Source of the DNA: Thioclava sp. GXIMD2076
GTDB lineage: Bacteria > Pseudomonadota > Alphaproteobacteria > Rhodobacterales > Rhodobacteraceae
Assembly (NCBI RefSeq): GCF_037949795.1
Contig: NZ_CP149932.1
Location: forward strand, 248,001 to 312,000
Length of the DNA: 64,000 nt
Direction of reading: 5' to 3'
Positions 3,105 to 30,011 of the stretch are shown here, one piece after another. Below the pieces are notes generated by a model. The model ran no database searches and was not told the origin of the DNA. It saw only the letters and a list, made by a program, of their open reading frames with translations. Each line of letters opens with the position of its first letter. The stretch's first letter is position 1. Both the position numbers and the translations under genes were made by a program.

Positions 3105-5545
3105 TCTGCGGCCTCCAGTTTGATTTCTGCCATCGGTTCGATCTCGGACGCGCCTTTTCCGGCGACAAATTCGGCCCAAGGATCGATCTGTGCGAATTGC
3201 TGCGAGTAGACGAAGCGGTCGTAATAGGCGCGGCGTTGCTCGGGGTCGTTGACCAGAACGTCCTGAATATGGTCATAGCCAAGACGGTTGGCCCATTTAT
3301 AGATCCGCTCCAGATAGAAGCCCGTCTCGCGATACCATTGCGTCAACGCGCCGGTATATTCGATGACCTCTTCCTCGGTCGCCACATTCACCAGCTTGGT
3401 GGTGCCTTGGATATGCAGGCCCGCCGCGCCGCCATAGACGATCTCGTAGCCGCTATCGACGCAGATCACCCCGATATCCTTGCAAGTCGCCTCGGCGCAG
3501 TTGCGCGGGCAGCCGGTGACCGCCAGTTTCAGCTTGGCCGGAGACCATGCGCCCCAGAGGAACTTCTCGAGCTTGATGCCGAGCCCGGTGCTGTCTTGCG
3601 TGCCAAAGCGGCACCAGTCCTTGCCCACACAGGTTTTGACAGTGCGCAGACCCTTGGCATATGCGGCCCCCGAGACCATGCCCGCCTTGTTCAGATCAGC
3701 CCAGACGGGGATCAGGTCTTCTTTCTTCACGCCTAGCAGGTCGATCCGCTGGCCGCCGGTCACCTTGACGGTGGGGATGTTGTATTTATCGGCCACATCG
3801 GCAATCGCGCGCAGCTCGTCAGGCGTGGTCATGCCACCAAACATCCGCGGAACCACCGAATAGGTGCCATCCTTCTGGATATTGGCATGCAGACGCTCGT
3901 TGACGAAGCGCGAGCGCTGGTCATCCTCATATTCGCCCGGCCATTCCGACAGCAGATAGTAGTTGATCGCGGGGCGGCATTTGGCACAGCCTTCCGAAGT
4001 CTTCCACTCGAGCGTCTGATAGACGGCCTGGATGGATTTCAGACCGGCCTTCTTGATGGTGGCGCGGACGATCTCGTGGCCATGCTCGGTGCAAGAGCAG
4101 ACGGGCTCGACCGCTTTCTGGACGAAGCTCTCGCCCAGCACGGATTTCATGACACAGGCCACAAGGTTCGAGCAGCTACCGCAGGATGCCGAAGCCTTGG
4201 TATGGGCGCGCACATCGGCCAGCGTCGTCAGACCCTGCTCGTTGATCGCCTTGACGATGGTGCCCTTGGAGATCCCGTTACAGCCGCAGATCTCGGCATC
4301 ATCAGACATCGTCGCCGCAGCCTCGACCGGGTCGAAATTGCCGCCGCCCTGATGGGCTTGGCCGAAGATGATAGTCTGGCGCATATCCTCGATACAGGCG
4401 CCGGATTTCAGCATCTCGTTATACCAGCCACCATCGGCCACATCGCCATAAAGCACCGCGCCGACGATCTTGTTCTCCTGCACGATCAGGCGCTTGTAGG
4501 AGCCACGCGCCGCGTCGCGCAGCACGATCTCCTCATAGCCCTCGCCGAACTGGCCGACCGAATAGAGGTCGCAGCCGGTCACCTTCAGCTTGGTGGGCGT
4601 GTCGACATGTTTAAAGCCCGCAATCGGTGCGCCTGCCAGATCGGCAGCGGCGATCTTGGCCATGTCATAGAGCGGCGCGACAAGGCCGTAGACCATACCG
4701 CCCACTTCGACACATTCACCGACCGAGTAGATCGACGCATCCGAAGTGCGCATCTGCGCATCGGTGACGATGCCGCGATTGACCTCGAGCCCCGCCTCTT
4801 TCGCAAGGCCGGTATTGGGGCGGATGCCCACGGCCATGACCACCAGATCGGCGTCCAGAATGGTGCCGTCTTCCAACTCGACACCTTCCACACGCTCGGA
4901 GCCGAGGATCTGCTTGGTATTGGCCTTGCAGCGCACCTCGATGCCGCGCGCCTCGAGCGCCTGTTGCAGCAGGTGGCCCGCCGCCGGATCGAGCTGGCGC
5001 TCCATCAGCGAGGGCATGATATGCAGGACGGTTACGTCCATGCCGCGGTTCTTCAGACCGGCCGCAGCCTCAAGGCCCAGAAGACCACCGCCGATCACCA
5101 CGGCACGGCCACCACGCGCGGCTGCCGCGATCATGTTCTGCGTATCATCAAGGTCGCGGTAAGCCAGCACGCCCTCCAGTTGATGGCCCGGAACCGGAAT
5201 GATGAACGGGTTGGAGCCGGTGGCGATGACCAGCTTGTCGTAATGCACGACACGGTCTTTGGCCGAAGTGACGGTTTTCGCGTCACGGTCGATCCCGATG
5301 ATGCGCTCGCCCATATGGAGCGTGACACCATGCGAGGCATACCAGTCCTCGCTATGGATGATGATATCTTCATAGCTCTTATCGCCGGCAAGCACGGGCG
5401 AGAGCATGATACGGTCATAATTGACGCGCGGCTCGGCGTTGAAGATGGTTACATCATACAGGTCCGGCGCAGTCTCGAACAGATGTTCGAGCATCCGGCC
5501 CGGAGCCATACCATTTCCGACGATGACGAGTTTCTGCTTGGTCAT
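3101..5545 (-). CDS. nirB: NAD(P)H-dependent assimilatory nitrite reductase, large subunit
   Basis: An 814-residue cytoplasmic enzyme that reduces nitrite to ammonia with six electrons from NAD(P)H. The N-terminus has the dinucleotide motif VIVGNGMAPG, and a second NAD-binding GGGLLGLEAA lies near residue 150. A BFD-like [2Fe-2S] domain with CGCNG and CGSC lies at about 419-456. The C-terminal sulfite/nitrite reductase domain has TCVGKDWC near 638 and GCPRNCAEATC near 678, whose cysteines hold the [4Fe-4S]-siroheme centre. Siroheme synthesis begins with CobA, encoded just upstream. The gene is first of nirB-nirD-nirC-kinase-cynS. A leader of about 350 bases precedes it, with candidate ANTAR hairpins. 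No nitrate reductase or nitrate transporter gene is visible here. Confidence 0.97.
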   Translation of the reverse strand: MTKQKLVIVGNGMAPGRMLEHLFETAPDLYDVTIFNAEPRVNYDRIMLSPVLAGDKSYEDIIIHSEDWYASHGVTLHMGERIIGIDRDAKTVTSAKDRVVHYDKLVIATGSNPFIIPVPGHQLEGVLAYRDLDDTQNMIAAAARGGRAVVIGGGLLGLEAAAGLKNRGMDVTVLHIMPSLMERQLDPAAGHLLQQALEARGIEVRCKANTKQILGSERVEGVELEDGTILDADLVVMAVGIRPNTGLAKEAGLEVNRGIVTDAQMRTSDASIYSVGECVEVGGMVYGLVAPLYDMAKIAAADLAGAPIAGFKHVDTPTKLKVTGCDLYSVGQFGEGYEEIVLRDAARGSYKRLIVQENKIVGAVLYGDVADGGWYNEMLKSGACIEDMRQTIIFGQAHQGGGNFDPVEAAATMSDDAEICGCNGISKGTIVKAINEQGLTTLADVRAHTKASASCGSCSNLVACVMKSVLGESFVQKAVEPVCSCTEHGHEIVRATIKKAGLKSIQAVYQTLEWKTSEGCAKCRPAINYYLLSEWPGEYEDDQRSRFVNERLHANIQKDGTYSVVPRMFGGMTTPDELRAIADVADKYNIPTVKVTGGQRIDLLGVKKEDLIPVWADLNKAGMVSGAAYAKGLRTVKTCVGKDWCRFGTQDSTGLGIKLEKFLWGAWSPAKLKLAVTGCPRNCAEATCKDIGVICVDSGYEIVYGGAAGLHIQGTTKLVNVATEEEVIEYTGALTQWYRETGFYLERIYKWANRLGYDHIQDVLVNDPEQRRAYYDRFVYSQQFAQIDPWAEFVAGKGASEIEPMAEIKLEAAE

Positions 5546-5898
5546 AACGAACCCCTAATGGCATGCGACACGATGGTCGCGGCGAGTGAGTTCGGGAGTG
5601 AAGCTGCATAGACGGGCAGGCATCATCCCGCATTCTGAAGAAGATCAGTGCGAAATGCAGCGCCATTGCCGCAGGCCCCTAGGGGCGTTTTCGGAAGAGC
5701 CGCGCCATTGCGGCAGATGGCCTTAATCAGGCCTTAAACTCAGCATTATCGCGGAATGACGATTCCACAAACCATTTTGAAGGACGTTCCGTAAAAATCT
5801 GGCAGCGCCCATGAGATATTGAAAAACTTGCCCCAAACTAAGCAACAAGCTGCATAATTGACAAAATAAACAGCACATTAAAAATACACCCAAAAGAA
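5546..5898 (-). promoter_or_regulatory. nirB upstream/leader region
   Basis: This 353-base gene-free stretch between cobA's terminator and nirB should hold the nirB promoter and leader. The distal half (5740-5898) is AT-rich and the proximal half is structured. Structures seen in the leftward transcript are: a GGCCT/AGGCC hairpin with a 5-base loop at 5719-5733; two hexaloop hairpins at 5699-5714 and 5657-5672; a GCCC-CTAG-GGGC hairpin at 5674-5685 between them; and an 8-bp bulged hairpin at 5629-5652. No clear sigma-54 or sigma-70 promoter could be assigned. A 75-codon open frame at 5723-5950 lacks gene character. Confidence 0.55.
5657..5714 (-). promoter_or_regulatory. Candidate ANTAR (NasT-type) twin-hairpin element in the nirB leader
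   Basis: In the leftward RNA, hairpin 1 (5714 to 5699) is GCCGC-AAUGGC-GCGGC, a perfect 5-bp stem. Hairpin 2 (5672 to 5657) is GCGGC-AAUGGC-GCUGC, five pairs including one G-U, extendable by one U-A pair. Both have the same six-base loop AAUGGC with A at position 1 and G at position 4, the rule known for RNA targets of ANTAR antiterminators such as EutV, NasR and NasT. The 26-base spacing is longer than in typical targets and contains its own small hairpin. No U-tract terminator was found between this element and nirB, so the mechanism here is less clear than for cobA. Confidence 0.55.
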
Positions 5899-5918
5899 AA
5901 CCGGGCGCGAGCCCGGTT
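5899..5918 (-). terminator. Intrinsic terminator of cobA
   Basis: The arms AACCGGGC and GCCCGGTT form a perfect 8-bp stem with a GCGA loop, 31 bases after the cobA stop. In the leftward direction it is followed by TTTTCTTTT, as in a rho-independent terminator. It separates cobA from nirB transcription. Confidence 0.85.
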
Positions 5919-5949
5919 TCCATCCGTCCCAAGCAATGCGTCACGCGCA

Positions 5950-6843
5950 TTATTCGACCGCTTGCAAGCCCGCCTGCGCCGGTATTTCACATGCCGCCAT
6001 CGTCTTGGGGTAGCGGATGAAGATCACAGCAGGGCTATGAAGATCCTGCGCCTCGATCTCCTGCGTCAGCGTGCCAAGCGTCATCTGCCCCTTGCGCTCA
6101 TGCGGCGTGCTGACCGAAGCTACAACGTCGATCTCGCATTCGGGCGGCACACCGGCCTCCAGAAGATCGCGCTGGATCTCTCCTGCCCGCTCGACCGCCA
6201 TATAGAAGGCCATCGAGGTGCCGGGACGGGCAAAACGGGTCCGGTCGGAGGGCGCGTCGCCGGGGCGGCAGGTGCCGGTCGTCAGAACGAATGTATCGGT
6301 TAGCCCGCGCGAGGTGAGCGGACGCGTCAGACTCGCAGCCGCCGCCGAGGCCGCCGTGATCCCGGGGATAATCTCGACCGGAATATCGGCTGCACGGGCG
6401 GCAGCGATCTCTTCGCAGGCCCGACCGAAAATCGACGGGTCGCCGGATTTCAGCCGCACCACGCGCCGACCTTTCAGAGCCTCCTCCACGATCAGCGCGT
6501 CGATCTTGTCTTGCGGCCAGGCGCAGGCGCCCACCGCCTTGCCAACATAGACAGTCTCGATCCCGCTTGGGATCAGGTCGAGGATTTCGTCCGAGATCAA
6601 CCGGTCATAGAGCACGACATCCGCTCGCCGGATATGATCCACAGCCCGTAGAGTCAGCAGGTCGGCGGCTCCCGGCCCCGCCCCCACAAGCGAGATATGT
6701 CCGCGTCGCGGTGCCTCTTGATCCTGCCCTGCGGCAAGCGATCGCCCGCTACTGGCCCGGACCGGCGCATCGACCAGACCCAGACCGATGCCGAACCAGC
6801 GCATGCGGTCGCGAAGAGCAATAGGAAGACCCATCATCGTCAT
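5950..6843 (-). CDS. cobA: Uroporphyrinogen-III C-methyltransferase (siroheme/precorrin-2 branch)
   Basis: A 297-residue SAM-dependent methyltransferase that turns uroporphyrinogen III into precorrin-2. The core starts near residue 48 with SLVGAGPGAADLLTLRA. It continues with the substrate-loop region VVRLKSGDPSIFGRACEE, PGITAASAAAA and PLTSRG. The first ~45 residues are not part of the conserved core. The ATG at 6843 is chosen over one at 6876 because it has an AGGAAC site directly upstream, and the longer frame would run into a terminator stem. Siroheme is the cofactor of NirB encoded next to it, so a nitrite-assimilation role is more likely than cobalamin synthesis. Control by a leader terminator directly before the ribosome site is suggested by the sequence. 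Confidence 0.93.
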   Translation of the reverse strand: MTMMGLPIALRDRMRWFGIGLGLVDAPVRASSGRSLAAGQDQEAPRRGHISLVGAGPGAADLLTLRAVDHIRRADVVLYDRLISDEILDLIPSGIETVYVGKAVGACAWPQDKIDALIVEEALKGRRVVRLKSGDPSIFGRACEEIAAARAADIPVEIIPGITAASAAAASLTRPLTSRGLTDTFVLTTGTCRPGDAPSDRTRFARPGTSMAFYMAVERAGEIQRDLLEAGVPPECEIDVVASVSTPHERKGQMTLGTLTQEIEAQDLHSPAVIFIRYPKTMAACEIPAQAGLQAVE

Positions 6844-6850
6844 GTTCCTC

Positions 6851-6900
6851 AAAACAAAAAAGCCGCCAGACCTCACCGCATATGCAGGGGGTCAGGCAGC
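6851..6900 (-). terminator. Attenuator-like intrinsic terminator immediately before the cobA ribosome site
   Basis: In the leftward RNA the arms GCUGCCUGACC (6900 to 6890) and GGUCUGGCGGC (6872 to 6862) pair at 10 of 11 positions, with one U-U mismatch and one G-U pair. They are followed by UUUUUUGUUUU (6861 to 6851). The next bases are the GAGGAAC ribosome site and the cobA ATG. A terminator at this position would stop cobA expression unless it is overridden, so it is probably a regulated attenuator. It could also serve as the end of the surf1 transcript about 150 bases upstream. Confidence 0.75.
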
Positions 6901-6942
6901 TTCGCCCGGAATCCTAGAAAGTCGACGCGACGTCGTTGCCGC
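6893..6942 (-). promoter_or_regulatory. Candidate ANTAR hairpin pair in the cobA leader, overlapping the terminator
   Basis: Hairpin 1 (6942 to 6927) is GCGGC-AACGAC-GUCGC: five pairs and a six-base loop with A1 and G4. Hairpin 2 (6908 to 6893) is CGGGC-GAAGCU-GCCUG: five pairs including one G-U, with a six-base loop that has G4 but G instead of A at position 1. The 3' arm of hairpin 2 lies entirely within the 5' arm of the terminator, so the two folds exclude each other. This is the layout of ANTAR-controlled antitermination. The 18-base linker and the non-consensus loop base lower certainty. Confidence 0.55.
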
Positions 6943-29756: not shown

Positions 29757-29913
29757 CGGGTCTCAGGCGCCTGAGAATGTTATTCCTTCGGCGGACGCAG
29801 TTTCCCGCGCCTCTCTCCAGAGTCTGTAGCCGTTCGGTCCTTTTGCCTGAGAGTTTCCCGGGGCGGTTGCTCCTTCGGCACCGGCGCGATGGCCGGATTC
29901 TCCCGTAGCGGCT
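29757..29913 (-). ncRNA. Tandem glycine riboswitch controlling gcvTHP
   Basis: In the leftward RNA two glycine aptamers are recognisable. The first runs from GGGAGAAUCC through GCCGAAGGAGCAAC to CUCUCAGGCAAAAGGACCG. The second runs from CUCUGGAGAGAGG through GCCGAAGGAAUAAC to UUCUCAGGC. These are the conserved cores of the gcvT RNA. A TCTCAGGC/GCCTGAGA palindrome (29761-29776) follows and may belong to the expression platform. gcvT starts about 100 bases downstream. No U-tract terminator was seen, so translational control or another mechanism is possible. It fills most of the 358-base gap between gcvT and the HAD gene. Confidence 0.93.
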
Positions 29914-30011
29914 GTTGCAGGTGGGATGCCCGATCCCGTGTCGCAGAGCAAGTGATTTTTACGCAAAACCGACGCTTGCACGCGGATTTGCGACTTTATG
30001 CCACCCACCGC

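Follow-up and report, generated by a model that had tools for sequence, protein, structure and literature searches.

Does the RNA in front of a siroheme gene carry a nitrate-responsive switch of its own? The question is raised by cobA of Thioclava sp. GXIMD2076 (5950-6843, minus strand, ATG at 6843), which encodes a uroporphyrinogen-III C-methyltransferase of the siroheme pathway, 297 amino acids long (TIGR01469 238.5 bits against a cut-off of 185, PF00590 157 bits), in a genome that holds further methyltransferases of this type, the nearest of them 40% identical. Positions are those of the window, the whole stretch of 64,000 nucleotides that was analysed (contig NZ_CP149932.1, 248,001 to 312,000), unless another sequence is named. 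An original prediction, made from the letters of this DNA, had described before cobA two hairpins and a terminator in an antitermination layout, of the kind acted on by ANTAR proteins such as EutV, NasR and NasT.

Anatomy of the cobA leader

The leader is read leftwards on the minus strand (6942-6851) and consists of two stem-loops with hexanucleotide loops, P1 and P2, and an intrinsic terminator that reuses the loop and the 3′ arm of P2; letters and positions of all three are as predicted. P1 is GCGGC-AACGAC-GUCGC (6942-6927, stem 6942-6938/6931-6927), and its loop AACGAC (6937-6932), as read from the sequence, has the A at position 1 (A1) and the G at position 4 (G4) that had been noted for it. 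An 18-nt linker (6926-6909), without the middle hairpin that is common in relatives, leads to P2, which is CGGGC-GAAGCU-GCCUG (6908-6893, stem 6908-6904/6897-6893) and whose loop GAAGCU (6903-6898) keeps G4 and has G1 where relatives have A1. The terminator (6902-6851), recognized from folds and pair counts, has a stem at 6902-6860 with a core at 6900-6862, extendable by two A-U pairs, and the U-run TTTTTTGTTTT (6861-6851) after its 3′ arm. Its 5′ arm begins inside the P2 loop (6900) and its 3′ arm ends at 6862, and thus P2 shares sequence with the terminator.

That the two structures exclude each other is borne out by folding: P1 and P2 persist in folds of growing transcripts until the 3′ arm of the terminator has been made, after which P2 is replaced, and the full-length leader folds at -37.7 kcal/mol compared with -27.0 kcal/mol when P1 and P2 are forced. 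When P2 folds freely, G1 can pair with U6, which narrows its loop to four bases. As a single sequence the 202-nt leader is only weakly unusual (z -1.49 against expectation), which is not decisive, and a simple terminator scan of the window did not have the cobA-leader terminator on its list. Judged by sequence comparison, the structure of P1, P2 and overlapping terminator can be regarded as confirmed, with conservation (see below) as the decisive basis.

Upstream, a promoter-like element was seen by eye on the same strand (6979-6950), with TTGCGC at 6979-6974 and TAATAG at 6955-6950 separated by 18 nt. In 19/20 leaders a TTG[ACG] motif precedes the aligned start by 32-39 nt, against a mean of 1.4 and a maximum of 5 in shuffles, for a distance band that was picked after the data had been seen; from this position, the start site would fall just before P1.

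Conservation among siroheme-gene leaders

Named genomes, when scanned, yielded 39 loci: 19 with 42% identity or below, and 20 with at least 53% (L033-L052), which are the set examined for leaders. The leader is present before cobA or cysG in 18 of the 20; none was found at L050 and L051, where nasA lies upstream of cobA. Fifteen of the 18 leader-bearing loci have no match to nirB, nirD, nirC or nasA within the fetched locus, while L044 has nirB-nirD-nirC downstream and L048 and L052 have nirC. In the genome of the same genus (G010), cobA is 78% identical and its leader has the loops AAUGGC and AAAGCU, with a linker of 19 nt.

The siroheme-gene alignment comprises 19 leaders (L034, identical to L033, was dropped and L045 was added by hand), and with 27 nrtA leaders, described below, it makes up a set of 46 unique leaders. 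In the 19 leaders, 97.9% of the cells of P1 and P2 are paired and 10 cells are changed on both sides, against 3.1 in shuffles; for the terminator the values are 90.9% and 29, against 11.3. In the 46 leaders, in an alignment fitted to P1 and not to P2, 96.0% of the P1 and P2 cells pair and there are 56 both-side changes, against 15.6 in shuffles. Paired cells and both-side-changed cells exceed all 500 shuffles, for P1 and P2 as well as for the terminator. The number of distinct pairs that show a both-side change is not above shuffles (157, 116 and 139 of 500 reach it): it is 3 for P1 and P2 and 6 for the terminator in the 19 leaders, neither of which is exceptional, and further pair types in the terminator are likewise not above shuffles. 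P2 varies little, with one of its five pairs changing on both sides in the 46 leaders. P1 and the overlap of P2 with the terminator are both conserved in relatives; had they not been, the prediction would have fallen.

Loop positions and linker length

Among the scorable unique leaders the P1 loop has A1 in 42/42 and G4 in 41/42, and both in all 19 siroheme-gene leaders, the window's AACGAC included. These siroheme rows were first chosen by patterns resembling the expected loops, and their A1/G4 agreement is therefore partly by construction; the nrtA rows came from a model. In the P2 loop, G4 is found in 43/43 scorable unique leaders, the window's GAAGCU among them, and position 1 is A in 42/43, the window copy with its G being the sole exception. 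For this reason we place the window copy in the NasT leader class as a variant, on grounds of homology, and not among the full dual-hexaloop targets.

Linker length in the class, with the nrtA leaders next to nasTS counted in, ranges over 18-35 nt, with boundaries uncertain in 6/46 rows (all nrtA), and the 18 nt of the window are the shortest. This exceeds the 5-12 nt of the Enterococcus faecalis eut genes, a rule that derives from EutV; within the class the 18-nt linker is no weakness, though it would be one for EutV. Of the two weak points that the prediction had named, the G in the P2 loop is real and unique to the window copy, while the linker is normal for its class.

A third hairpin in the linker

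In 42/46 unique leaders a further hairpin, with three or more G-C pairs, lies between P1 and P2, by a looser definition that was chosen after the rows had been seen, and the four without it are those with the shortest linkers (the window 18, L004 19, L041 20 and L045 20 nt). The pattern CCC...GGG occurs in 41/46 linkers, compared with a mean of 1.0 and a maximum of 6 in 300 shuffles, although it was picked post hoc and the rows are related by descent. Under a strict definition (CCC/GGG with loops of 4-9 nt) the hairpin is present in 38/46 leaders, four nrtA leaders being missed, and no significant link to linker length is seen (p 0.12). With this definition, G stands at loop position 4 in 18/19 loops of 7 nt, 3/10 of 6 nt and 1/9 of 8 nt, and 8-nt loops have G at position 5 in 7/9. 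The gaps, in 41 rows, are 4-16 nt from P1 to the middle hairpin and 2-7 nt from there to P2. Taken one by one, the linkers have only a modest folding advantage over their own shuffles (median fraction as stable 0.10). A nasTS-nrtA leader in a genome of another family has the hexaloop-sized hairpins AAAGGC, GAUGAC and AAAGCC.

A tentative reading, to which we give somewhat less than even chances, is that in this family NasT acts on an antiterminator of three hairpins and not on the dual hexaloop known from publications; the middle one (UCCC...GGGA, most commonly with a 7-nt loop and G4) would serve as a stepping stone or spacer with which NasT spans long linkers. It follows in this reading that the cobA leader of the window's genus would be a contracted form, with the middle hairpin lost and a linker of 18-19 nt. 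No paper on a three-hairpin NasT target was found among the literature matches listed (titles and abstract openings). Long linkers with a conserved middle hairpin call the EutV spacing rule into question for NasT.

Model searches and co-occurrence with ANTAR genes

For a covariance model, R1, only siroheme-gene leaders from other genera were used, 16 in all, with the window and its genus excluded. The model scores the window's cobA leader at 44.3 bits (E 3.4e-10). Over the whole genome two strong sites come out, before nrtA (53.4 bits) and cobA (E 2.2e-8), the next ones following at E 0.26 and 2.2, where E-values of models of this type are rough. A model of P1 and P2 only (R2) again has nrtA and cobA as its two strong genome sites, but it is not independent of R1, since both were trained on the same rows. 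No Rfam family was over threshold at the cobA leader, the weak matches around it looking like chance, and five related loci gave tRNA only; the sole family over threshold in the window is a glycine riboswitch (RF00504, 63.7 bits, 29825-29915, minus strand).

In 149 genomes of the family, R1 gave 46 hits in 43 genomes under strict filters. Among the 31 hits that were fetched, 27 precede nrtA and 4 precede cobA or cysG; these four are the window's own and those of three genomes already aligned, so that the family scan added no new siroheme-gene leader. Sequence of nasT and/or nasS lies just upstream of 26/27 nrtA hits, the exception being that of the genome studied here. The 15 unfetched hits comprise 14 at 1.39-1.47 kb from an ANTAR match and one on another contig. 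All 43 genomes with a hit are among the 76/149 that have the ANTAR domain PF03861, and none of the 73 without it has a hit (Fisher p 7e-17, a value that is too small owing to linkage and descent, to which the co-occurrence is partly due). ANTAR genes were present in 24/24 chosen genomes, and no contrast can thus come from that set. Across 289 genomes of the class R1 matched in four, and two of these do not belong to the family: in one the hit sits between nasTS and nrtA and has three hexaloop-sized hairpins, and in the other, which is without nas genes, it is probably due to chance.

The regulator genes that the prediction required are present. PF03861 matches once in the genome, at nasT (contig 245800-246411, ANTAR 85.2 bits), which lies beside nasS (contig 246408-247574, NMT1-like, 202.7 bits) 1.6 kb to the left of the window, which starts at contig position 248001. 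Also to the left are nrt-like ABC genes (tentative names) and a nitrate-reductase-like gene. The nrtA leader of this genome (G000:C1:237429-237549; L072) has A1 and G4 in both loops as well as the middle hairpin and is probably the main NasT target of the genome; by model R1, the cobA leader belongs to the same RNA class.

Neighbouring genes and the nirB leader

Behind cobA there is a terminator-like hairpin of 11 pairs with a TTTT tail (5896-5921, minus strand), from a simple scan that gave three such sites against 2.0 in shuffles, which is near chance; it can do no more than suggest that cobA is a unit separate from nirB. Downstream follow nirB (start at 5545), nirD and a formate/nitrite-transporter-like gene that is below the cut-off of its family.

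Apart from the cobA leader, a pair of hairpins with A1/G4 hexaloops lies before nirB (5714-5656, minus strand: 5714-5699 and 5673-5656, linker 25 nt), and it is not followed by five or more T in a row. Such pairs, with linkers of 25 or 31 nt, precede nirB in 6/26 nirB loci scanned (the window and L107-L111), and in 5/6 no run of five T follows P2; L044:2660-2870 has a comparable pair, whose linker is longer in the alignment. The step on which the nirB leader hairpins act may be translation or Rho and not intrinsic termination. A fold able to sequester the nirB Shine-Dalgarno site (z -3.29) was seen in the window and in the very similar G010 leader, but it is not claimed here because it is missing in the other three relatives folded.

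Two further reading frames were noticed in passing. A long one on the minus strand (164-1834), which by the look of its sequence we take to be a protein phosphatase/kinase fusion, has matches that adjoin nirC in L044 and L048. Another, at the left edge of the window (L002:6678-7142, minus strand) and presumably a cyanase, has a 72% match near nirC in L048.

A proposed mechanism and its alternatives

The anatomy of the cobA leader, its conservation and pairing, the presence of nasT and nasS and the RNA class shared with the nasTS-nrtA leader are observed; the promoter, NasT binding, the nitrate response and readthrough are what we infer. On this footing the leader is, with high probability, an attenuator of the ANTAR/NasT class by which transcription responds to nitrate, and it would match siroheme to NirB. 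Transcription would start just ahead of P1. Without nitrate or nitrite, NasS would hold NasT, the terminator would fold and RNA polymerase would halt before cobA; with nitrate, freed NasT would bind the hexaloops, P2 would stay folded, the terminator would be blocked and cobA would be transcribed. Siroheme would then rise together with the nitrate transporter, nitrate reductase and NirB.

Alternatively, the leader may descend from a NasT target and yet be a failing copy, at which transcription mostly ends with or without nitrate, or whose response is weak; this we consider unlikely without dismissing it. It has in its favour the G1 of P2, the missing middle hairpin and the lowest score among siroheme-gene leaders, most of the rest having been in the training set of the model. 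G4, both stems, the terminator and the U-run are intact, however, G1 still faces U6, and the G010 leader, which has A1, is without the middle hairpin too. Some published results speak against the preferred reading as well. An A-to-U change at position 1 of P2 is reported to lower EutV-dependent induction (PMC3369931, available part), though in the available text on the structure of EutV the sole base-specific contact is that of G4, the protein is not seen to touch A1 specifically and A1 is suggested to help the RNA fold (PMC8934654). In the same two sources, as far as available, a linker of 14 nt drastically reduces EutV induction and the addition of 20 nt abolishes antitermination (PMC3369931, PMC8934654), while linkers here have 18-35 nt. 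The window copy may respond less well than its relatives, by its G1 and missing middle hairpin. In Bradyrhizobium, according to the available part of PMC6759348, nirA and a coxS gene have such predicted NasT hairpins and are down in a nasT mutant, yet narK and bjgb have them and are up, so that such hairpins do not guarantee activation.

That a regulator or ligand other than NasT uses both hairpins is very improbable: no Rfam family reached threshold at the leader, which would suit it, but the genome yielded no ANTAR gene besides nasT, leaders of this RNA class also stand between nasTS and nrtA, and the hexaloops follow the A1/G4 rule except for G1. Least probable of all is an ordinary terminator of the upstream gene joined by two chance hairpins. 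A SURF1 gene does lie directly upstream of cobA on the same strand, both here and in G010, and the weakly unusual single-sequence fold would suit this reading; none of the 18 leader-bearing named loci, however, has a SURF1 match at E below 1e-15 (for L044, in 1.1 kb upstream only), and the promoter-like TTG stands at a near-fixed distance. A SURF1 terminator alone is disfavoured by the conservation of the leader at other loci and by the R1 match. With NasT-class attenuation as the preferred reading, the antitermination layout first predicted before cobA is supported by the conservation of P1 and of the P2 overlap and by nasT-nasS just outside the window, and nature offers a test of the A1/G4 rule, in one copy with G1 in P2 and one of the same genus with A1.

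Comparison with known systems

One close parallel is Paracoccus denitrificans, of the same order, Rhodobacterales, where the available text reports that NasT binds the nasA leader RNA once nitrate has freed it from NasS (PMC3795266), and that mutation of leader hairpin HI severely lowers expression, whereas mutation of HII hardly changes expression on nitrate (PMC5424462, available part). The regulator pair NasS-NasT is the same, and the leader hairpins stand before assimilation genes placed after nasTS, the position of the nrtA hits of R1; the comparison covers regulators and position, and the target there is the nas operon, whereas here the proposed target is cobA, a siroheme gene behind a separate leader. 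The Klebsiella nasF leader, under NasR, is likewise a case of nitrate-responsive ANTAR antitermination on assimilation genes, but NasR senses nitrate itself, while NasS and NasT are separate proteins. EutV of E. faecalis also acts on two A1/G4 hexaloop hairpins, the second overlapping a terminator, with linkers of 5-12 nt, in contrast to the 18-35 nt here, usually with a third hairpin inside, and to the G at position 1 of the window's P2.

The dual hairpin was defined by Ramesh et al., with predicted targets before nitrate/nitrite transporters and nitrite reductase; the word "siroheme" is absent from the main text in its available part (PMC3369931). In Sinorhizobium meliloti, cysG shares a transcript with nirB, nirD and narB (PMC6616083, available part). 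None of the literature matches listed (titles and abstract openings) dealt with a NasT leader before a cobA or cysG unit that stands apart, and to this extent the suggestion that such control may be new holds. It does not hold for cobA as such: Romeo et al. 2012 reportedly described antitermination within the NasT-controlled nirBD-PA1779-cobA operon of Pseudomonas aeruginosa. As far as the sources available on them go, that operon, which ends with cobA, and the NalA leader of P. putida are likewise subject to NasT antitermination, whereas in the window separate leaders precede cobA and nirB. An attenuator of the NasT type before a siroheme gene outside such an operon, which comparison supports well, would be a new instance that extends a known form of control rather than founding one, and, if true, it would widen the NasT regulon in Rhodobacterales to the separate supply of siroheme, the cofactor of NirB.
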